Shown here: positions 7,311 through 51,884 of the stretch, piece by piece
How the letters are laid out: each line of letters opens with the position of its first letter
How positions within the stretch are numbered: position 1 is the first letter of the stretch
Source: Lachnoanaerobaculum orale
GTDB lineage: Bacteria > Bacillota > Clostridia > Lachnospirales > Lachnospiraceae
DNA: 64,000 bases
Direction: 5' to 3'
Assembly (NCBI RefSeq): GCF_003862485.1
Contig: NZ_RRCM01000001.1
Location: forward strand, 1,359,374-1,423,373
The notes under the pieces: model-generated
Database searches by the model: none
Told to the model about the DNA's origin: nothing
The model's input: only the letters and a program-made list of their open reading frames with translations
Made by a program: the position numbers and the translations under genes

Positions 7311-8387
<1,077 letters not shown>

Positions 8388-8397
8388 AACAAAAACA

Positions 8398-8424
8398 GGG
8401 GTAGCAAGCGCTACCCCGTTTTTT
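8398..8424. terminator. Bidirectional terminator between ilvC and ppk
   Basis: Perfect 8-bp stem GGGGTAGC/GCTACCCC around an AAGC loop, followed by a T-run on the plus strand. An A-rich stretch before it makes a T-run on the minus strand, so it can end both ilvC and the convergent ppk unit. Confidence 0.88.
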
Positions 8425-8439
8425 ATTTTTAAATTATGT

Positions 8440-10605
8440 CTATTCCCCCTTTAAAGGTGTAAAAGTTCTGTCATCCTCAGCCTTGCCGGCTTTTACGGCA
8501 TTTTCATAGGCCGCCTTTGCCTCTTTTACAAAGATTTCCTGTGAGTTTTTCTTTGCTTCATTGTTTTTCTTTACCTTTTCATAGCTGTCGTCAGGCAAGA
8601 GTATTGAAGCCTTTACATTATCTTCAAGCTCAACCTCAAGGTAGTGCTTGATACTCCTTATGATATCCTCATCTGCTACCGGGAATACTATCTCCACTCT
8701 CTTTTCAAGATTTCTATTCATCCAGTCTGCACTTCCAAGGAAAATTTCCTCTTCACTGTCTATACGGAAATCAAATATTCTGGCGTGTTCAAGGAATGTG
8801 CCCACTATCGATCTTACCGTAATATTTTCAGATACTCCCTTTATTCCTACTCTGAGGCAGCATATACCTCTGACTATAAGTTCTATCTTTACGCCTGCAC
8901 AGCTTGCGGCATAAAGCGCTTCTATAATATCCTTATCTGAAAGTGAATTCATCTTCGCGATTATATGAGCATCACTGCCGTTTTTTGCAGCCTGTGTACA
9001 TTGATTTATCTTATTTAAGAATATATCCTTCATCCAAAGCGGTGCTACAACATATCTCTTCCAAAACGGAGGCTCGGAGTATCCGCTGAGCATGTTAAAG
9101 ACTGCCGTAGCGTCCTCGCCGTAACTTTCTCTTGCGGTAAACATACCTAGGTCAGTATACAATTTGGCAGTGGAATCATTATAGTTTCCAGTTCCAAGGT
9201 GTACATATCTTCTGATACCGTCCTCTTCTCTTCTCACTACAAGAGTTATCTTTGAGTGGGTCTTAAGCCCTACAAGTCCGTAGATTACATGACATCCCGC
9301 CTTTTCAAGCATCCTTGCCCAGTTGATATTGTTCTCCTCATCAAACCTTGCTTTAAGCTCCACCAAAACTGTAACCTGCTTACCGTTATCCGCCGCATTT
9401 GCAAGCGCCTTTATAATAGGAGAATTTCCGCTGACTCGATAAAGTGTCTGTTTGATAGCAAGTACATTCTTGTCTGCAGCCGCCTTTGATACAAAATCTA
9501 TTACAGGGTCAAAGCTCTCATACGGATGTGAAAGTAATATATCTTTTTTCTTTATTTCCTCAAAAATATCTTCACAGTCCAAAAGTCTTGCATTGGCTAC
9601 AGGGATATGCTTTTTATCCTTCAGATTGTCAAAGCCGTCAAGAGAGTATATCTTCATAAGAACTGTAAGATCCAGCGGTCCGTCTATTCTGAATACATCC
9701 TCTTCGTCAACATTCAGCTCGTTTTTTAAAAAGTTTAAAAGGCTTGCATCCATCCTCTCTTCCACTTCAAGTCTGATTGCCTCTCCCCACTGTCTTTTCT
9801 TCAACTTTTTCTTGATTTCCTCTAAAAGGTCAAGTGCCTCGTCCTCATCAAGCTTAAACTCCGCATTTCTCATTACTCTGAAGGTTGCAGCCGAGATTAC
9901 CTCATAGTTTAAGAAAAGTTTATCAATATTTTTTTCGATAATATCTTCAAGATAGATTATCTTTCTTTCTTCAGAATCTGTAGGAATCTCTACAATTCTT
10001 GGAAGTACTGACGGTACCTGTACCATTGCAAAGTCCATATCTCCATCCACATTTCCAAGGTAGACATCCTTTTTCTTCTTCTTTGAGTTTTCATCCTTTC
10101 TCTTTCTGATAAGAGCCGCAATATTAAGTGTCTTATTTCTTACAAGCGGAAACGGTCTTGACGCATCCACAGCCATAGGTGTAAGCACAGGATATACAAA
10201 CTCGTCGAAGTATTCATTTATAAACTTCTTCTCACTATGTGAAAGTTCATCGCCATGACCTAATATATGCAAATGATTCTCTTTTAGAAGCGGAAGCAGT
10301 GAACTGTAGATTTCATACTGTTTTCTTACAAAATCATGTGTCTCTTTTGCAAGTACATTAAGCTGCTTGTCCGCACTCATTCCCGCAATATCTTTTTTCT
10401 TATAGTCCGCATCCACCATATCCTTAAGTGATGCAATCCTTACCATGAAAAATTCATCTAAGTTTGATGATGTGATACTTAAAAATTTCAGCCTCTCAAA
10501 AAGCTTTACATCATCATCTTTAGCTTCATGTAAGACTCTTTTATTGAACTTAAGCCAAGACAGCTCTCTGTTGGTAAAATATTCCACATTGTCAAACTTT
10601 TCCAT
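8440..10605 (-). CDS. ppk1: Polyphosphate kinase 1
   Basis: Reversibly polymerises the gamma-phosphate of ATP into inorganic polyphosphate. The domain order is N-terminal helical (YFTNRELSWLKFNKRVL, TSSNLDEFFMVR), middle, then two phospholipase-D-like C-terminal domains. VYGL-type segment VIYGLVGLKTHSKITLVV carries the His expected to be autophosphorylated, and FLEHARIFDF carries the second conserved His. The 721 aa length is normal for PPK1. It is 18 bases downstream of the Ppx/GppA gene, so synthesis and breakdown of polyphosphate are encoded in one unit. AAGGAG precedes the ATG. Confidence 0.97.
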   Translation of the reverse strand: MEKFDNVEYFTNRELSWLKFNKRVLHEAKDDDVKLFERLKFLSITSSNLDEFFMVRIASLKDMVDADYKKKDIAGMSADKQLNVLAKETHDFVRKQYEIYSSLLPLLKENHLHILGHGDELSHSEKKFINEYFDEFVYPVLTPMAVDASRPFPLVRNKTLNIAALIRKRKDENSKKKKKDVYLGNVDGDMDFAMVQVPSVLPRIVEIPTDSEERKIIYLEDIIEKNIDKLFLNYEVISAATFRVMRNAEFKLDEDEALDLLEEIKKKLKKRQWGEAIRLEVEERMDASLLNFLKNELNVDEEDVFRIDGPLDLTVLMKIYSLDGFDNLKDKKHIPVANARLLDCEDIFEEIKKKDILLSHPYESFDPVIDFVSKAAADKNVLAIKQTLYRVSGNSPIIKALANAADNGKQVTVLVELKARFDEENNINWARMLEKAGCHVIYGLVGLKTHSKITLVVRREEDGIRRYVHLGTGNYNDSTAKLYTDLGMFTARESYGEDATAVFNMLSGYSEPPFWKRYVVAPLWMKDIFLNKINQCTQAAKNGSDAHIIAKMNSLSDKDIIEALYAASCAGVKIELIVRGICCLRVGIKGVSENITVRSIVGTFLEHARIFDFRIDSEEEIFLGSADWMNRNLEKRVEIVFPVADEDIIRSIKHYLEVELEDNVKASILLPDDSYEKVKKNNEAKKNSQEIFVKEAKAAYENAVKAGKAEDDRTFTPLKGE

Positions 10606-43970: not shown

Positions 43971-44001
43971 AAAAAGCGCAAGCTTATCATGCTTACGCTT
44001 T
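43971..44001 (-). terminator. Terminator ending the five-gene HTH-PIN-Ank unit
   Basis: Minus-strand AAAGCGTAAGC/GCTTGCGCTTT with one mismatch or wobble and a seven-base loop, followed by a T-run. The upstream arm includes the ADP-ribosylglycohydrolase stop codon. Confidence 0.8.
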
Positions 44002-44934
44002 TAACAAGCTGTCAATCCAATCCTTTTTTTGCACCTTGGCTTTCCAACTTGCAGGTATTTTATCATAAGTATAGTATAGTCCTGCAAGCCCACCTGTTAC
44101 GGCTGCTACAGTGTCTGTATCATCCCCTAAGTTTACAGCTTTTAAAACAGCATCCTTATAAGATGAGGTATTTATCAGACACCATATGGCTGCTTCAAGT
44201 GTGTATACAACATATCCGGTACTCTTTATCAGTTCTTTCGGTATATTTTTAAATTGTGAGAGTGAAATAAGTCTGTTATAGCTTCCAAGCTCGTTTTCAT
44301 TATTTTTACCGTAATACTCAAATGCATTATCTATTCCTATCTGCAGTCTTTCTGTCAATTCTCCACATTCTCCCAAAACAGACCTTACCAAAAAATAATA
44401 TATACCACAGGCTAATTGGCTTCTTATATGTGCATGTGTCAAAGCTGAACAATTATGTGCAATATCTATAACTTCATCATCCGATATATTTAAGCTTTTT
44501 TGCTGTTCAAAAAGATATAAGCATACCGGCAATATTCTCATAAGCGAACCGTTACCGTTATCCCACTCCGTTTTTCCTCCCGACTCTAAAGGCCCTGCCC
44601 CGTTACTGTATTTCATTACAGCTCTTGAAGTCGCTATTCCTATATCAAAGACTTCACCAAAAGGTGTGTATTCTCCGTACATACACCAATCATGAAATCT
44701 GTCCATAATATCCTTATAATCAATCTTTCCTTTATCCTTAATACTTGCAAGAGTTGCAAGTGCCATACTGCTGTCATCAGACCATGTGCCTTCAGGCTGA
44801 TTATATGTTCCGTATCCTGTCATATCTTTTATAGGGTTTTTCTCTCTTTCCTCTCTTGTGCCGAATTCAACAGGTACTCCCATCGCGTCTCCGATAATAA
44901 GACCGTATATTCCCGATTTCCGAATATTATTCAT
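43993..44934 (-). CDS. ADP-ribosylglycohydrolase family protein
   Basis: DraG/ARH-like fold that removes ADP-ribose from proteins or small molecules using two metal ions (313 aa). The metal-binding acids are in IIGDAMGVPVEF (N-terminal), GTWSDDSSMALATL near residue 50 and GDDTDTVAAVTGGLAGLYY near 272; all are present, so it should be active. It is last in the unit starting at 48630, 20 bases after the phosphoribosyltransferase gene. Its target could be a nucleotide-like or NAD-derived product of the upstream enzymes, which is inferred from position only. Confidence 0.9.
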   Translation of the reverse strand: MNNIRKSGIYGLIIGDAMGVPVEFGTREEREKNPIKDMTGYGTYNQPEGTWSDDSSMALATLASIKDKGKIDYKDIMDRFHDWCMYGEYTPFGEVFDIGIATSRAVMKYSNGAGPLESGGKTEWDNGNGSLMRILPVCLYLFEQQKSLNISDDEVIDIAHNCSALTHAHIRSQLACGIYYFLVRSVLGECGELTERLQIGIDNAFEYYGKNNENELGSYNRLISLSQFKNIPKELIKSTGYVVYTLEAAIWCLINTSSYKDAVLKAVNLGDDTDTVAAVTGGLAGLYYTYDKIPASWKAKVQKKDWIDSLLKA

Positions 44935-44954
44935 TTATCCCCCTAGTCTCTATA

Positions 44955-45458
44955 CTATATCTGATTAAAAAGTCTCATAGTAGTATCAGGCCCTCTGTTA
45001 CCCTTTTGTACCTTGGTATTACTGCCTACATATGAGTTTTTTGATACACGTACAGTATAAAGCCTGTCTTTAAACTTTTCCACCGCATTTTCATTGATTA
45101 CACAACAAGCCACACTGATGTCCGGACCGTATATCTCTTCTATAGTTTTACCTGTATTTATTACTGAATCCACCAGTATTATATTCTTTGTCTTCGGGCG
45201 GATAAACTTATCCTTCTTAGGATCATAAACATCAAACCTGCACCCTAAAGCGTAATATAATCCCATAGCCATAAATATACCGCCTCTAAGTATCGCCACG
45301 ACCGTAGTATCATGTGAAAACTGCTCCTTTATTTGTTCTCCAAGCGCCATACCCAATTCTACATGAGCCTTTGCAAGTTCCGGTCCGCTTATACCCGAAT
45401 CCGACTTTGTAATTGCAATAAGCTTCTCTATTCTCTCATCCCTTTTTATTTCAAACAA
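44955..45458 (-). CDS. UPRTase-like phosphoribosyltransferase
   Basis: Type I phosphoribosyltransferase fold (167 aa). The PRPP loop is NIILVDSVINTGKTIEEI, and ending GNRGPDTTMRLFNQI resembles the uracil phosphoribosyltransferase C-terminus. AILRGGIFMAMGLYYALG is the expected second strand region. The base that it joins to ribose phosphate is not fixed by sequence. The start is TTG at 45458, with GGAGGG eight bases upstream. It overlaps the stop of the kinase-HAD gene by eight bases, which indicates translational coupling. Housekeeping upp is usually longer (about 209 aa) and not in such a setting. Confidence 0.78.
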   Translation of the reverse strand: MFEIKRDERIEKLIAITKSDSGISGPELAKAHVELGMALGEQIKEQFSHDTTVVAILRGGIFMAMGLYYALGCRFDVYDPKKDKFIRPKTKNIILVDSVINTGKTIEEIYGPDISVACCVINENAVEKFKDRLYTVRVSKNSYVGSNTKVQKGNRGPDTTMRLFNQI

Positions 45459-46500
45459 TCTGTATTCCCTCCAAATTTCTGTTTTTTAAGGAGCTGCTAA
45501 TCTCCCCTGTCGGTTTGGCTATAAGAAATGCCTCGTCAGCCCTCTTTAACATAAAGTAATCATTCATACTGTCTCCGAAAGCTCTCACTTTTCTATTACC
45601 TTGTAAAAATTTTGCAATAAAAAACTTTGTGTCTGCCGACATTTGATTTCCAAAAAATACCGGTCTTTTTATTTTTTCCGAAATATTTTTCCATATATCA
45701 GGCTGTCCGGACGTCAATATAAATCCGTTATCCATATATTTAAGTACAAATTCATTATATGTAATATCTGGTATTTCCGTTTTCTTAGAAGTGTTTATAT
45801 ATTTAATCATATTTTTATGATGTAAAAAGCTTTGAAAACCTGTATAAAAATTTCCGTCAAATATATGTGTTTTATATCCGATCAAAGAACTTGAATCTTC
45901 TCTTATCAATGTCCTGTCACCGTCTGTAAGTGTAATATCTGTAACGTCCGACATTGATAAAATATCATTTGCCACCTCTTTTGCAAAATTTACACAGCTG
46001 AACCCTTTTGAAACAGCGTATACAAACTTTAATACTGTATTTATATCATCAAAATATCCCAAATCCTGATTGTCAATGACATAAAAATCCTTATTATGCT
46101 CATGGCAATACTCTCTTAAGTTTTCTATTTCAGTATTCTGCCATTTTTTTATATCAAATTTCAGATACTTACCGTTTTTGGAAGATTTCTCCATTCTTGA
46201 CCTTAATACTTTCGGTTCAATATATAAATATAAAAATGCATCATAAAGCTTACCGTCTTCTTTTGTAAATACCACATTGTCTCCGAATGAATAATGCCCG
46301 TCCATAATGAAATTGTCTTCTTTAAGCAAAATATTTGCCAATTCTTTTCTTACAGCTTTTTTACACTTCTCATCCATATGATGAAAATCTTTGTTAATAT
46401 CAAAAAGCATCTCGCTTCCGTGAAGGACTTTAATCCCCTTTATTCTGTCTAAAATATAGGTCTTACCTGCAGCAGGCAGCCCGTATAAGCCTAATCGCAT
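45451..46500 (-). CDS. P-loop kinase-HAD phosphatase fusion
   Basis: Two enzymes in one chain (349 aa). Residues 1-160 form a nucleoside-kinase-like P-loop domain with Walker A GLPAAGKT at 7-14 and lid-like NFIMDGHYSFGD at 63-74. Residues 170-349 form a HAD phosphatase with motif I TDGDRTL at 192-198, motif II FILTSGQP near 260 and motif IV GDSMNDYFML near 309. Motif I Asp-x-Asp is intact. The pairing of kinase with phosphatase suggests making and finishing a nucleotide-like molecule. It overlaps the radical SAM gene by ten bases and the PRTase by eight. AAGGAG precedes the ATG. Confidence 0.82.
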   Translation of the reverse strand: MRLGLYGLPAAGKTYILDRIKGIKVLHGSEMLFDINKDFHHMDEKCKKAVRKELANILLKEDNFIMDGHYSFGDNVVFTKEDGKLYDAFLYLYIEPKVLRSRMEKSSKNGKYLKFDIKKWQNTEIENLREYCHEHNKDFYVIDNQDLGYFDDINTVLKFVYAVSKGFSCVNFAKEVANDILSMSDVTDITLTDGDRTLIREDSSSLIGYKTHIFDGNFYTGFQSFLHHKNMIKYINTSKKTEIPDITYNEFVLKYMDNGFILTSGQPDIWKNISEKIKRPVFFGNQMSADTKFFIAKFLQGNRKVRAFGDSMNDYFMLKRADEAFLIAKPTGEISSSLKNRNLEGIQIV

Positions 46501-47327
46501 ATCATCTCCTTATAACATTTTTCTCTGTCAAAGTCCAAATGTATTTTTTCAAGTTCATTTATTTTAATATCACTTTTTGCTACAGGTTCCAAATCAACAC
46601 AGTTTCCACATAGAAATACCTTGCCGTTTGCAAAGAAGAAATTGTTGATTCCGGCTCCGCACATGCCTCCATACATTGTACAGTCATAGCCCCCTCTGCG
46701 CACATTCAAGCTTTTCTGTGCATTATCTAAAAAGCGGTTGAACTCTTCTAAAGAAATACCGTATTTCCCGATCATCCTTGAAAATGTGATTCTGTTATCA
46801 AACTTTTCAAAGAATTTTATAGTGGCATCCTCTTCTTTTATAACTTCCTTTCCTACGGTACAGTTCATACTCGGATAATTTCCTGTAATCCGCTTATAAA
46901 GTTCTATCTTCTCAAGAACCTTTCCATGTGTATTACAGCGATACATATCATGTATTTTTTCTGTTCCGTCTATCGAAAAGCCGAGATTTACATTGTTTTT
47001 AGCAAAGAACCTTATCATATCTTCATTTAACAAAAGTCCGTTTGTAATAGAATATGCCATAATTTTTCCCCGCTTTATATAACCGGAAATATGTAATATA
47101 TATTCTTTAAGATCATTATATTCAAGCAGCGGCTCCCCGTTGCCTACAAATCCGATTTTAAACAGTTTAATATCCTTACTTTCAATATATGTGATTATAT
47201 TGTCTAAAATTTCAAACACATCCATTGTGTCGTTTTTAATAACATCTTTTTTCTCATGAAAATGACAATATTTGCAGCTTAAATTGCATCTGTTATTTAT
47301 TGAAATACATACTCTGTCTATTTGCAT
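46491..47327 (-). CDS. Radical SAM enzyme with SPASM-like C-terminus
   Basis: Radical SAM protein (278 aa). The SAM cluster motif is CNLSCKYC at residues 14-21 (CX3CX2C). GNGEPLLEY gives the SAM-binding GGE-like motif and LGFSIDGTEKIHDMYR is typical of anSME and SPASM relatives. Additional Cys at 216, 223, 240, 243, 271 and 277 could hold an auxiliary cluster, as in SPASM/twitch enzymes. Substrate unknown; no small peptide gene was found beside it, which weakens a peptide-modification role. It overlaps the upstream HTH-PIN-Ank gene by 35 bases and the downstream kinase-HAD gene by 10. Confidence 0.82.
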   Translation of the reverse strand: MQIDRVCISINNRCNLSCKYCHFHEKKDVIKNDTMDVFEILDNIITYIESKDIKLFKIGFVGNGEPLLEYNDLKEYILHISGYIKRGKIMAYSITNGLLLNEDMIRFFAKNNVNLGFSIDGTEKIHDMYRCNTHGKVLEKIELYKRITGNYPSMNCTVGKEVIKEEDATIKFFEKFDNRITFSRMIGKYGISLEEFNRFLDNAQKSLNVRRGGYDCTMYGGMCGAGINNFFFANGKVFLCGNCVDLEPVAKSDIKINELEKIHLDFDREKCYKEMICD

Positions 47328-48630
47328 TATACCTTTTGCTCTTTCCGTAATCTTTTAACATAGGTCCGTTTTTCCTGTATTCATTCATCCAATCAATATA
47401 GGACCTGCCGCTCATATCTACAAGCTTTGTATCTGCACCTGCTTCAAGCAAAACTTTTCTTATATCTTTACCGTCTCTAAAGTATCCGTTCATACAGGCT
47501 TTCATCAATGCACTAAATCCGTTTGCATCCTGTTGATTAAGGCTTGTTCTCTCATCTTCACATAATAATTTTACAAATTCCGTCATTCCATGCCATGCCG
47601 CTATCATCAAAGGCATATTTCCTTCATTCTTTTGCCTTAGTTTCTCGCCGCTATATGGATTTTTGCTGCCTACATTCGGATTTGCTCTACATTCAACCAA
47701 CAGAAATCCAAACATCTCATAGTCTTTTACCTGTATTGCATGTGAAAGCGGAGGGAAGTATCTCCGTGCATTATCTCTTTTATTTACATCACCTCCCAAT
47801 GATATCAACCACCTTATTTTTTCCTTTCTTTGATTCATAGGTTTTGATGTTGCTCTTACAGTAGAAATAATCAATGTATTTCCGTCACTCATATAGGCAT
47901 TTACTTCATCTTTGCCAATCCTTTCAAGGCTTTCATAAGTATCCGCAAAAAAATCTTTTATATTGTCAAGCCTTCCCGTATCTCTTATCGGTTGTTTTGT
48001 TGCTATATATTTACCCAAATGTAATGCCGCTATATTCTCATTATTCTTTAAGTATACCGAATAATCAATGTCATCCGTTATAATGTCAACTTTTGTATGA
48101 TACTTTTTTGAAGCCTCGTTTGCGATATATATAATCTTTTCATCATTTTTAATATTTTTATTTTTACCCGTATACTCCATTGACACAATCTTGTCTCCGT
48201 AACTTATACCTCTAAGTACCTCCCAAGCCTTTTTACATAATGATGATTTATAATCCTTTATACTGTTCAATTCATTTACCACAACTTTAGGTATAATAAC
48301 CTTGTCATATTCCTCATTCAGTTCATCTATCAGTTGAATATTCTTAAGTATTGCCGAGGTGTCCACTACAACCGTCTTTTCTCCCCTTAAGAACTGCTTT
48401 ATCTGTTCATCCGACATACAAAAAGCCTTACAATATCTTATTGCATAATCTTTTAAGGTATTTTCACGTGTTTTGCCGTTTTCCGCACGGGATAAAGAAG
48501 ATTTTTCTACTAATGTACCTTCATAGTTTTGTATCTTTTTTACCATATCATCCAAGCTGCATTTATATTCTTCTCTGAGTTCTTTCATCCTCAAGCATAA
48601 AAAAGGGATTTCTTTTTTCTTCTCTGTCAT
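47293..48630 (-). CDS. HTH-PIN-ankyrin three-domain protein
   Basis: A rare-looking fusion of 445 aa. Residues 10-80 form an XRE-type HTH (MKELREEYKCSLDDMVKKIQ, then SSLSRAENGKTRENTLKDYA). Residues 86-210 form a PIN nuclease with Asp90 in VVVDTSAIL, Glu120 in VVNELNSIKD, Asp163/Glu164 and Asp186/187/189 in IITDDIDYS, so the acidic active site is complete. Residues 265-425 hold ankyrin repeats (IRWLISLGGDVNKRD, PLMIAAWHGMTEFVKLL, ALMKACMNGYF, KVLLEAGADTKLVD). The HTH should bind DNA or the own promoter, the PIN domain should cut RNA, and ankyrin repeats should contact a partner. It is first in the five-gene unit. AGGAG precedes the ATG. Confidence 0.87.
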   Translation of the reverse strand: MTEKKKEIPFLCLRMKELREEYKCSLDDMVKKIQNYEGTLVEKSSLSRAENGKTRENTLKDYAIRYCKAFCMSDEQIKQFLRGEKTVVVDTSAILKNIQLIDELNEEYDKVIIPKVVVNELNSIKDYKSSLCKKAWEVLRGISYGDKIVSMEYTGKNKNIKNDEKIIYIANEASKKYHTKVDIITDDIDYSVYLKNNENIAALHLGKYIATKQPIRDTGRLDNIKDFFADTYESLERIGKDEVNAYMSDGNTLIISTVRATSKPMNQRKEKIRWLISLGGDVNKRDNARRYFPPLSHAIQVKDYEMFGFLLVECRANPNVGSKNPYSGEKLRQKNEGNMPLMIAAWHGMTEFVKLLCEDERTSLNQQDANGFSALMKACMNGYFRDGKDIRKVLLEAGADTKLVDMSGRSYIDWMNEYRKNGPMLKDYGKSKRYNANRQSMYFNK

Positions 48631-48654
48631 TTATACTCCTTTCTTTATATCGTT

Positions 48655-48682
48655 ATTATATTATTTCTCAGTATGTCTTCAA
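48655..48682 (-). promoter_or_regulatory. Predicted promoter of the HTH-PIN-Ank unit
   Basis: Minus-strand TTGAAG (48682-48677), 16-base spacer, perfect TATAAT (48660-48655). The leader to the ATG at 48630 is about 18 bases. Confidence 0.6.
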
Positions 48683-48695
48683 TATTCTTAAGCGA

Positions 48696-48724
48696 TAATG
48701 CAACAAATCAGAGTATATTGCAAC
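48696..48724. repeat. Two direct repeats upstream of the HTH-PIN-Ank promoter
   Basis: TAATGCAAC (48696-48704) and TATTGCAAC (48716-48724) are direct repeats starting exactly 20 bases apart, about two helical turns. They lie just upstream of the -35 box, where an activator or the HTH protein itself could bind. Confidence 0.4.
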
Positions 48725-48756
48725 GACACAAGACTCTTATACAGACTTTTCCCATT

Positions 48757-48802
48757 AAAAAAGCCGTTAAAACCAATCTTTTCATTGATTCCAACGGCTT
48801 TT
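48757..48802 (-). terminator. Terminator after the 115-aa cysteine-motif gene
   Basis: Minus-strand AAAAGCCGTT/AACGGCTTTT with an inner paired region and a T-run. It separates this gene from the HTH-PIN-Ank promoter. Confidence 0.75.
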
Positions 48803-48816
48803 ACTATGCCTTTAAT

Positions 48817-49183: not shown

Positions 49184-49981
49184 CTATTTCATGCTTCGCA
49201 TATACTTTTCAAAGCTTTCCACACTCATATTTGCCCTGCTTGCCGCATCGGCTATACTTAGTATACCGTCCTTTACTAAAGATATTAAGGCACTGATAAA
49301 TCCCTTTTGTATACCTTGCTTTCTGCCTTCTTCTCTACCTTCTTCTCTGCCTTCTTCATATAATTGCTTCAGTACTTCTGACATATCTTCTCCCTCCTCT
49401 GAATACTTCAATCTATACTTTATATCAGATACTATCGGAAAATTCCTGCTATAGCTGTCATCTTCTGTAAAAACTCTCATTAGTTCCGATAAACTGCTTC
49501 CATCTCTTATATTAGCACAAATATATATTTCTCTTAATCCGTTGTCAAGTTCTATATCAAAACCGTCTACAACCCTTTTTATTTCATATTTTACTCTATT
49601 TTTATTAAAGATATCAAAGTTACATACATATATTATGCATATATCCGGTAATTCATTAAAACTGACACCTTTTTCAATCATGTTAGTAGTGAGCATACTG
49701 CTGTAATATCTCACTCTCTTTTGATGGTTCACATTATCATCATTTTGTATCTCTACATTTATAACCCTACCGTCTTTTAGCCTACATAAAGCATCAAGAA
49801 TTACCGATCTTCTTTCGATACTTGTTATTGAGTGTTGTGCATGATTTTCTAATACTTCAAGTCCGGGATCTTCTAAAAACTCTCTAAGTATCTCCTCACA
49901 AAAGCTTTTATTTTCTGCCATTTTCCTAAAAAATATATCATCAATAGGGTTTAGTTTCTCTATGACTCTCCTATAATCCAT
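49184..49981 (-). CDS. rpn: Rpn family recombination-promoting nuclease
   Basis: PD-(D/E)XK nuclease of the Rpn/transposase_31 family, which stimulates RecA-independent recombination and DNA breakage (265 aa). The N-terminus NPIDDIFFRKMAEN is typical. The active site is RRSVILDALCRLKDGRVINV with VEIQNDDN (Asp...Glu-x-Gln). The C-terminus has EEGREEGREEGR repeats and a helical tail. Start set at ATG 49981 with AGGAG four bases upstream; a longer frame to 50035 would overlap fbp. Whether it still moves is unknown. It sits 31 bases after fbp. Confidence 0.87.
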   Translation of the reverse strand: MDYRRVIEKLNPIDDIFFRKMAENKSFCEEILREFLEDPGLEVLENHAQHSITSIERRSVILDALCRLKDGRVINVEIQNDDNVNHQKRVRYYSSMLTTNMIEKGVSFNELPDICIIYVCNFDIFNKNRVKYEIKRVVDGFDIELDNGLREIYICANIRDGSSLSELMRVFTEDDSYSRNFPIVSDIKYRLKYSEEGEDMSEVLKQLYEEGREEGREEGRKQGIQKGFISALISLVKDGILSIADAASRANMSVESFEKYMRSMK

Positions 49982-50012
49982 ATTTCTCCTTTTCTTCCCC
50001 ACAACCTGCATC

Positions 50013-51884
50013 TTACAGCGTCCTGTAATTTTCAAGCAGCATCTTAAGGTCGGCTATGTCCTCAAGGATTTGTTTACCGATGTCCGTATCCTTTACAAAC
50101 ATACGATATGTCTCCTTTTCTATCACCTCTGACTCCGACCTTATATCCGTGTTGTTTATCAGTGCATCTTCTACAGATGTGAAAGGAGTATGAGCCATCA
50201 ACCTAAGTCCGTGTGAGTTAAATATCAGAGTATAGCCTGCAATTCCCGTAGTCTTGTTCATAGCACGGCAAAATCCGCCGTCTATAACAAACAGCCTGCC
50301 GTTTGCTCTCACAGGGTTCTCACCGTCAACGGCATGAACAGGTGTATGACCGTTTATAATATGAGAATGTACATCATACAGACCGAACTCATGTAAGATT
50401 TGACTGCAAAAACTCTCATCATAGTACCTGCTGTAATACGGATTCGACGGTTCTTTCCAAAAGCTTTTATCTTCTACATAGTCTCTCTCAAAGGTCTTTA
50501 CCATTCTGCCACAAAGCGGTGATTTCTCACCACCCCATAAAAACCACATAAAGTCCACATCATCCATACTCGGATTGTCCGTATAAGCCGCTCTTGCCTT
50601 CTTATCACATATATCAAACAGCGCTTTACCGTGATAATACTTACCGTCTATAGAAAGCATATCAAATGTACCCTTCTCATCCACAGGCACACAACCGTGA
50701 TAAATCAGGTTTCTGTTGTAAACATTGTACATACTTCCTTTATCATATAAAAACTTTATATGTTTGTTAAGTCTTTGACCTGATACAAAACTTCTCCTCA
50801 ACTTCAAAAGAATCTCTTCCTCTTCATCAGTGAGTCTATACGGATCGTTCATATCAAGAGTTGGAAAAAGTGTTGTCTTCAGTGCAGTCTCCACACCGTC
50901 TATAGTCACGCTGCCTCTGTCAAGATTTATATGTTCTAAAAGCAATCTGCTGTCCATCTCATACTCCGGATGCCTTTTTATAAGCTGACCTTCCACCTTA
51001 AAAAGCATTACCTTGATTGCCGCAAGCGCAGCCTGTATTCCGTCCGATATACCGTACATATTCATCCCGAAAATAATAAGCGGCCTTAGGCTGATACCAT
51101 ATCCGTTTTCCAGGATTTCAACATTGCCGTACTTTAAATTATTTCTGATAACATTGCAGATACAGGCATCGTTACCGCATACCGCACCCATCCAAAGAAT
51201 ATCATGATTGCCCCATTCAATATCCATAGAATGATACTTCATAAGCAAATCCATTATCCTGTCAGCCTGTCCTCCTCTGTCAAATACATCTCCCACCAGA
51301 TGCAGATGGTCTACCGCAAGTCTTTTTATAAGTGCCGAAAGTGCAATGATAAACTCGTCAGCATCTTCCAAATCTATGATTGTTTGCAAAATATGCCTGT
51401 GATAGCTGACTTTATTGGTATCTTCATTCTTTTGTGCGTGTAAAAGCTCGTCGATAATATACGCGTAGTCCTCAGGCAATGCCTTTCTAACTTTTGACCT
51501 TGTGTACTTTTGTGAAAGCAGTCTTGCAAGCATTATAAGATAGTTTAAAGTCATAGAATACCATCCGGCATCTATCTTTCCGGTCTCGGCAAGCATGGTC
51601 ATTTTCTCCCTCGGATAATATATCAGAGTACAGAGTTCCTGCCTGTCAAACTCGGACAAAGTATCTGTAAATATAAGGTCGACCTTTTCCTTTATCACAC
51701 CTGAACAGTTATTCATAATATGTAAAAATGCCTCATATTCACCATGTATATCACTTAAGAAAAATTCGGTTCCCTTCGGCAGGTTTGTGATGGCGGACAG
51801 ATTGATAATCTCTCTGATTACCGACTGACTTGACGCGTAATTTTGCTTAAGTAACTTTAAATACTTTACATTCTCCCTATTCAT
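50013..51884 (-). CDS. fbp: Fructose-1,6-bisphosphatase class III
   Basis: Gluconeogenic enzyme that dephosphorylates fructose-1,6-bisphosphate, of the Firmicute class III, metal-dependent metallophosphatase type (623 aa). Metal ligands lie in FFLSDIHGEYEAF near residue 43, LVGDVFDRGGQADRIMD near 195 and EWGNHDILWMG near 215. The C-terminal NGHTPVHAVDGENPV and VIDGGFCRAMNKTTG are family hallmarks. It follows vanW by 17 bases. Confidence 0.97.
   Translation of the reverse strand: MNRENVKYLKLLKQNYASSQSVIREIINLSAITNLPKGTEFFLSDIHGEYEAFLHIMNNCSGVIKEKVDLIFTDTLSEFDRQELCTLIYYPREKMTMLAETGKIDAGWYSMTLNYLIMLARLLSQKYTRSKVRKALPEDYAYIIDELLHAQKNEDTNKVSYHRHILQTIIDLEDADEFIIALSALIKRLAVDHLHLVGDVFDRGGQADRIMDLLMKYHSMDIEWGNHDILWMGAVCGNDACICNVIRNNLKYGNVEILENGYGISLRPLIIFGMNMYGISDGIQAALAAIKVMLFKVEGQLIKRHPEYEMDSRLLLEHINLDRGSVTIDGVETALKTTLFPTLDMNDPYRLTDEEEEILLKLRRSFVSGQRLNKHIKFLYDKGSMYNVYNRNLIYHGCVPVDEKGTFDMLSIDGKYYHGKALFDICDKKARAAYTDNPSMDDVDFMWFLWGGEKSPLCGRMVKTFERDYVEDKSFWKEPSNPYYSRYYDESFCSQILHEFGLYDVHSHIINGHTPVHAVDGENPVRANGRLFVIDGGFCRAMNKTTGIAGYTLIFNSHGLRLMAHTPFTSVEDALINNTDIRSESEVIEKETYRMFVKDTDIGKQILEDIADLKMLLENYRTL

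Follow-up and report, generated by a model that had tools for sequence, protein, structure and literature searches.

Ter modules combine a phosphoribosyltransferase (PRTase) with a HAD phosphoesterase, and a nucleoside-like conflict signal has been proposed for them (Anantharaman, Iyer and Aravind 2012, as described in PMC7824862). For signals made by PRTase plus HAD enzymes, they are the nearest published idea to the element described here, a unit of four adjacent genes, A to D, in a 64,000-nucleotide stretch of the Lachnoanaerobaculum orale genome (contig NZ_RRCM01000001.1, positions 1,359,374 to 1,423,373; hereafter, the window). The genes encode a helix-turn-helix (HTH)-PIN-ankyrin (Ank) protein (A), a radical S-adenosylmethionine (SAM) enzyme (B), a kinase-HAD protein (C) and a PRTase (D), and are followed by a gene for an ADP-ribosylglycohydrolase (E). 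The likeness to Ter modules, as far as that account describes them, lies in the PRTase plus HAD enzymes; the difference lies in the radical SAM enzyme, the adenylate-kinase-fold kinase and the PIN-Ank protein. A sequence-only reading of the locus had stated that Ter genes are absent and, indeed, a Pfam scan confined to the five proteins and three neighbours found no match to TerB, TerC, TerD, TerF or TelA.

We propose that A-D is a horizontally moving conflict unit of the Lachnospiraceae, most likely anti-phage, in which B, C and D would set the level of a nucleotide-like signal, and A would read that signal and cut RNA. We put this forward as a serious, if tentative, possibility. The unit is found in gut bacteria and their prophages and looks like an undescribed phage-defence system; a defence role is likely. 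What the sequences give directly is the gene order with its overlaps and fusions, the catalytic residues, the mobile and defence settings, the history that B, C and D have in common, and the exchange of A; how the folds lead to a compound, and the compound to a trigger, is, like the chemistry of the signal, what we infer.

Prokaryotic viperins (pVips), which make 3ʹ-deoxy-3ʹ,4ʹ-didehydro-nucleoside triphosphates (ddhNTPs), resemble the unit in combining a radical SAM enzyme with a nucleotide-kinase-type partner, and B has a similar core fold and the CxxxCxxC motif. An alternative explanation is that the product of B, C and D is, like that of viperin, a nucleotide analogue that is toxic or ends chains, with the roles of sensor and effector reversed, such that A is a fast-changing infection sensor and repressor. 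We consider this rather unlikely. B scores 56.3 bits against the viperin model NF038283, for which the cut-off is 180, and has additional cysteines of the auxiliary-cluster type. Furthermore, the catalytic residues of the PIN domain are mostly kept, which would be superfluous for a pure sensor, and the HAD half of C would destroy the product.

In the OAS-RNase L pathway, an ankyrin domain and an RNase-type domain are joined in one chain, and the signal makers are of nucleotide type. Protein A likewise carries an ankyrin and an RNase-type domain in one chain, and the nucleotide-type enzymes of the unit may be its signal makers. The likeness is one of architecture and is an analogy only: A has a PIN domain rather than the RNase L domains and an added HTH, and the unit has no nucleotidyltransferase. 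A PIN nuclease is essential for phage protection by DS-3 and DS-5, and DS-9 includes a HAD phosphatase whose target is unassigned (DefensePredictor, PMC13092281). As described there, DS-3 and DS-5 differ from A-D in comprising one or two genes and in lacking enzymes of the B, C or D type; the legend of Fig. 4 also names a PRTase. No known system in the 2023 copy of PADLOC covers A-D, and a literature search, judged by titles, abstract openings and selected passages, found no published system with its gene content among the papers listed, although subscription-only descriptions may have escaped the search. The sequence-only reading had likewise known of no published system with such a gene order.

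Recurrence, shared history and setting of the unit

A search with C, followed by profiles of B, C and D, yielded 15 loci including the window (given L numbers below). The recurrent unit is the four genes A-D, and E is a local addition. The genes stand in the same order on one strand in 14 of the 15 loci; the contig of the other, L012, ends just after C. B overlaps C in every locus. C and D overlap in 12 of the 14 loci that have D and are fused into one gene in the other two (L010 and L011), and A overlaps B in 13/15 loci, with gaps of 344 bases (L009) and 47 bases (L010) in the remainder. Overlap sizes are based on longest-open-reading-frame (ORF) starts, and the larger ones may be overstated. 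The locus had initially been read as a five-gene unit, to be tested for a recurring order and against chance overlaps. The five ORFs are real, and for A-D the order recurs, with overlaps that are also seen in other loci or become a fusion; it is the fifth gene that does not belong to what recurs.

The unit is uncommon. Full-length C was found in 5/299 genomes of the family, 4/392 of the order and 1/398 of the phylum (the window species' own genome), in draws that share genomes. B was found in 6 of 397 family genomes (E ≤ 1e-25), all six of which also carry C. In the viral collection IMG/VR, separate profile scans with C, B and D confirm the same four contigs, among stretches that match short back-translated patterns. 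Raw counts with the C profile (E ≤ 1e-3) were 96/392 and 86/398, of which only four and one, respectively, were full length; the others, short matches within the HAD portion with best E values of 3.3e-6 and 2.0e-8, were left out. We also dropped a sixth family match (6/299), in genome G130, which has 33% identity over residues 30-101 (E = 4.5e-4) and an internal stop.

Pairwise identities of B, C and D correlate with one another (Spearman 0.42-0.69, permutation p 0.0005-0.013), and those of A correlate with none of the three (-0.04 to 0.05, p 0.38-0.57). The sole weak link is between the HTH part of A and B (0.23, p = 0.027). In these comparisons, which use longest-ORF starts, the fused D part was left on C in L010 and L011, which affects only the comparison of these two. 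Within A, the identities of the HTH, PIN and Ank parts correlate at 0.55-0.72; because they go together, A moves as a whole gene. L012 and L014 are 80.8% identical in B and 87.2% in C, but only 30.1% in A. Their DNA is about 92% identical over the tail part; over the endolysin part the identity is about 82%, and similarity is then lost just past the endolysin gene, to return at the end of A. In trees, L012 and L014 are sisters for B (support 97/96) and C (100/100). In the tree of A, for which the program warned of long branches, L012 joins L081 (100/100) and L014 joins L008 and L074 (100/99). We conclude from these comparisons that B, C and D share a history, and that related prophages have exchanged A as a single, whole gene.

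What is the setting of the unit? Mobile-element or defence-like neighbours are present in 9/15 loci, or 5/11 if the four viral-collection loci are left aside. Tail, holin and endolysin genes lie upstream of the unit in L014, which L012 matches in its tail and endolysin DNA; a tape-measure gene and a serine integrase gene are near it in L079, an endolysin gene in L080, a serine integrase gene in L081 and, as judged by eye, recombinase genes in L074. L077 lies in a conjugative element, with genes for RepA_N and a conjugative coupling protein. L011 has DdmD-like (90.1 bits) and DdmE-like (34.5 bits) genes together with an HKD-SNF2 gene, and L078 has DrmD-like, AbiO/Nhi-like, mad2-like and TmtA-like genes nearby. 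Helicase-family matches in PADLOC are non-specific. In the window, L009, L010, L013 and L015, no such neighbours were noticed in the part of the neighbourhood that was scanned; the short contig of L008 adds only a NERD-domain gene. The suggestion of a stress or phage-defence context fits these settings, several loci being in prophages or beside defence-like genes.

These same settings bear on the possibility that the unit serves the mobile element, in lysogeny control or addiction, with A as a repressor-like HTH protein that has a toxic PIN domain. The HTH at the N-terminus of A, the adjoining lysis and integrase genes, and an exchange of A like that in immunity regions all agree with such a role. 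However, there are chromosomal copies with no phage genes noticed, the unit also occurs beside DdmDE-like and DrmD-like genes, and three metabolic-type enzymes would be unusual for addiction. Hence, we regard service to the mobile element as unlikely.

The four proteins

The HTH-PIN-Ank description of A stands in part for the window protein itself: Pfam matched PIN_4 and Ank, but no HTH (E ≤ 0.1). The HTH comes from relatives, four of which match HTH_3 at the N-terminus (L009, L074, L077 and the first copy in L080). Acidic PIN residues E120 and D187 are kept in all 16 A proteins and D90 in 14. The ankyrin part is the best conserved (mean identity 47.5%), followed by PIN (38.4%) and HTH (31.2%). 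PADLOC matched PDC-M72A over Ank and PDC-S70 over PIN. L080 has two tandem A genes (7477-9980): the first encodes an HTH and has a histidine in place of the first PIN acid, and the other lacks the HTH and has an aspartate at that position. Among ORFs of at least 80 amino acids (aa), the arrangement is not of the VapBC type, since the PIN domain is not a stand-alone toxin but shares a chain with HTH and Ank, and an enzyme gene, not a small antitoxin gene, comes next. In the two loci with the third A subtype, small genes that are alike by eye lie just 5ʹ of A (L077:13030-13332 and L078:6833-7273); neither has a family match above cut-off.

B had been described as a radical SAM/SPASM protein. Pfam matched Radical_SAM and, at E ≤ 0.1, no SPASM. 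The C-terminal cysteines (C223-x11-G235-x4-C240-x2-C243...C271) form a pattern that we take to resemble the shorter, one-cluster "twitch" type; of the description, the first half is confirmed. The core cysteines, C14, C18 and C21, are kept in 15/15 proteins, and nine cysteines are invariant overall. In structure comparisons, the nearest fold is anSME, followed by ChlB, SuiB, viperin and MoaA. PADLOC matched B to pVip. Of the 80 NCBIfam models matched, the best 25 were considered, and B reached the cut-off of none; scores include 86.4 bits for HxsB and 81.6 for anaerobic sulfatase maturase.

Since these closest folds and profiles are those of enzymes that modify proteins or peptides, B could instead modify a protein, perhaps A, with C and D supplying or recycling the modifying group and no free signal. 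This seems improbable to us. The history of A differs from that of B, C and D, unlike that expected of an enzyme and its dedicated substrate. As for the radical SAM/SPASM peptide maturases, B is closest in fold to anSME and ChlB, and the overlaps and fusions of B, C and D leave no room for a precursor-peptide gene in the gaps between them, which are the places we looked.

The label of P-loop kinase-HAD for C is borne out: Pfam matched AAA_17 and Hydrolase_3, and the best fold matches are an archaeal adenylate kinase for the kinase half and SerB for the HAD half. Residues kept in all 15 proteins are G12 and K13 of the P-loop and D193, D195, K292, D310 and D314 of the HAD domain. That a single protein joins a P-loop kinase to a HAD phosphatase, in a unit that also holds an RNase-type domain, would be expected too if C were an RNA end-healing enzyme of the Pnkp kind, and the unit repaired or recut RNA. 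We think this very unlikely. D is a PRTase, passing the cut-off for Pribosyltran (35.0 vs 26.3). The earlier term "UPRTase-like" is loose, as the match to the uracil phosphoribosyltransferase (UPRTase) family falls just short (26.2 vs 27). PADLOC gave no match for C, D or E.

Boundaries of the unit, gene E and the downstream position

The features of the locus are listed below. The coordinates agree with the initial description of five minus-strand ORFs, with overlaps of 35 (A/B), 10 (B/C) and 8 (C/D) bases and one gap of 20 bases (D-E). The terminator proposed after E is sound, and the A-E stretch is bounded on both sides by strong hairpin terminators. The proposed promoter is present as a sequence match; sites of its quality number 47 in the scanned region, not above the 41.4 ± 7.2 expected by chance. 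Hence, a separate transcription unit is better argued from the upstream terminator than from the promoter match. Elsewhere in the window, a 12/24-base tandem repeat (49312-49357) lies in the charged C-terminal part of a gene for an Rpn-type PD-(D/E)XK nuclease (49184-50035).

Features of the A-E locus, in window coordinates
Feature	Position	Strand	Basis or remark
A, HTH-PIN-ankyrin protein, 445 aa	47293..48630	-	ORF list, Pfam; candidate exchangeable sensor/regulator/nuclease
B, radical SAM enzyme, 278 aa	46491..47327	-	ORF list, Pfam, CxxxCxxC and C-terminal auxiliary-cluster-type cysteines
C, P-loop kinase (residues 1-166) joined to HAD phosphatase (185-349)	45451..46500	-	Pfam, fold matches
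D, type I phosphoribosyltransferase, 167 aa, TTG start	44955..45458	-	ORF list, Pfam
E, ADP-ribosylglycohydrolase	43993..44934	-	Pfam, sister-species comparison; relocated genus gene, outside recurrent unit
Intrinsic terminator 3ʹ of E, overlapping E stop	43972..44002	-	12-bp stem, z -4.48
Strong terminator hairpin 3ʹ of preceding 115-aa gene	48752..48812	-	z -7.29
Possible sigma-70-type promoter, TTGAAG-16-TATAAT	48655..48682	-	10/12 match; such sites not above chance

Position 20 bases after D, followed by one terminator, is the argument for counting E (Pfam ADP_ribosyl_GH) as a fifth gene, with a signal derived from ADP-ribose or NAD. E adjoins A-D in 1/15 loci, the window, and in none of the 13 other loci with downstream sequence. 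It is present in 6/6 genomes of the genus, of which one, that of the window species, has B (profile E ≤ 1e-20). In five sister species, E lies between two R2K-clade ATP-grasp genes, with extra genes before the second in L091. An arrangement of R2K.2, ADP-ribosylglycohydrolase and R2K.3 genes has been described in Firmicutes (PMC4431377). This cluster is the home of E in the sisters, and differs from our locus in that no A-D genes were noticed there. A radical SAM gene is close by in four sisters (L092-L095), as is an RtcB gene (L091, L092, L094, L095); domains were scanned in L092, against whose proteins those of the other sisters were matched by identity. In the window species, E has left the cluster: the R2K.2 part stands without it, and the window copy is the sole match to E in the genome. 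The cluster itself is broken up in this species, with R2K.2 and the radical SAM gene together and R2K.3 and RtcB elsewhere (L119, G000:C1:2047500-2057500; L120, G000:C1:765500-775500), and the homologue of its 326-aa gene is in pieces.

At the site of the unit, the FBPase stretches of five sisters (L114-L118) have no match to A-E (blastp, E ≤ 1e-8). Directly after FBPase, three of them (L116-L118) have an acyltransferase gene, with 50-51% identity to its counterpart behind E in the window; L114 has the 115-aa gene after FBPase, and L115 has neither. Because the sisters have FBPase without A-E, and have E in the R2K cluster, both the arrival of A-D and the relocation of E to its downstream flank took place in the window lineage. 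A-D is thus an insertion that is absent from this site in the sister species. The five-gene reading is therefore rejected and, with a signal derived from ADP-ribose or NAD, is highly improbable: the assignment of E to the system finds no support, and the NAD-derived signal rested on E.

In other loci, the position after D is often taken by a gene with a NERD domain (PF08378; 7/13 loci with downstream sequence, with one ORF between in L081). A profile scan of IMG/VR confirmed NERD only on the four A-D contigs (4 loci from 82 candidate stretches). Could NERD be a required fifth gene? This was rejected: it is missing from 5/7 A-D genomes, and one of 235 family genomes, G201, carries it next to a gene for a PD-T4-6-like kinase. 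The C matches in the 299-genome draw, to which G201 presumably belonged, do not include this genome. NERD seems to be an accessory of such cassettes, and in the window E takes its position.

A NERD gene, a gene for a 1143-aa PD-T4-6-like kinase and a 396-aa gene without a PADLOC match stand together at L128:9106-15003, another possible defence cassette. In several mobile copies, NERD is followed by small genes (about 65-76 aa) that resemble one another by eye, at L014:11145-11796, L079:13693-14338 and L074:6155-6583; one small gene after NERD in L014 is HNH-like.

A proposed signal and its reader

How might the four proteins act together? We suggest that D would join a base to phosphoribosyl pyrophosphate (PRPP), that B would use radical chemistry to alter the base, the sugar or the nucleotide, and that the kinase half of C would charge the product and its phosphatase half remove it, so that B, C and D would together set the level of one small nucleotide-like signal. 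C holds both a kinase and a phosphatase, lies next to or is fused with a PRTase and, in these loci, is never without a radical SAM enzyme, which suggests one small compound whose level is raised and lowered. The notion, already in the sequence-only reading, of a signal that is made and erased fits a protein that unites adenylate-kinase and phosphatase folds and is encoded beside a PRTase.

A would repress the operon through its HTH. Upon infection, its ankyrin domain would bind (or lose) the signal, and PIN would cut RNA, stopping growth or the phage. A is a candidate reader of the signal because it is exchangeable yet always bears Ank, the best-conserved part. We propose that A genes are exchangeable because all variants must read the same signal. 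E would have joined the transcript only in the window species.

A bolder form of this proposal is that A-D represents a new class of immune signalling, in which the PRTase and B make an altered nucleotide, an adenylate-kinase-type domain charges it, a HAD domain erases it and an ankyrin-gated PIN RNase reads it. We consider this doubtful, though worth stating. If true, the logic of the unit would make it a bacterial equivalent of OAS-RNase L, with sensors swapped as single genes between phages and, if confirmed, radical SAM chemistry would be added to the known immune signals. A-D is a compact, mobile four-gene unit with parts that point to a nucleotide-type signal, and the kinase-phosphatase protein, a module of B, C and D with one history, and the way in which A is exchanged in nature make both the signal and the response of A directly testable.
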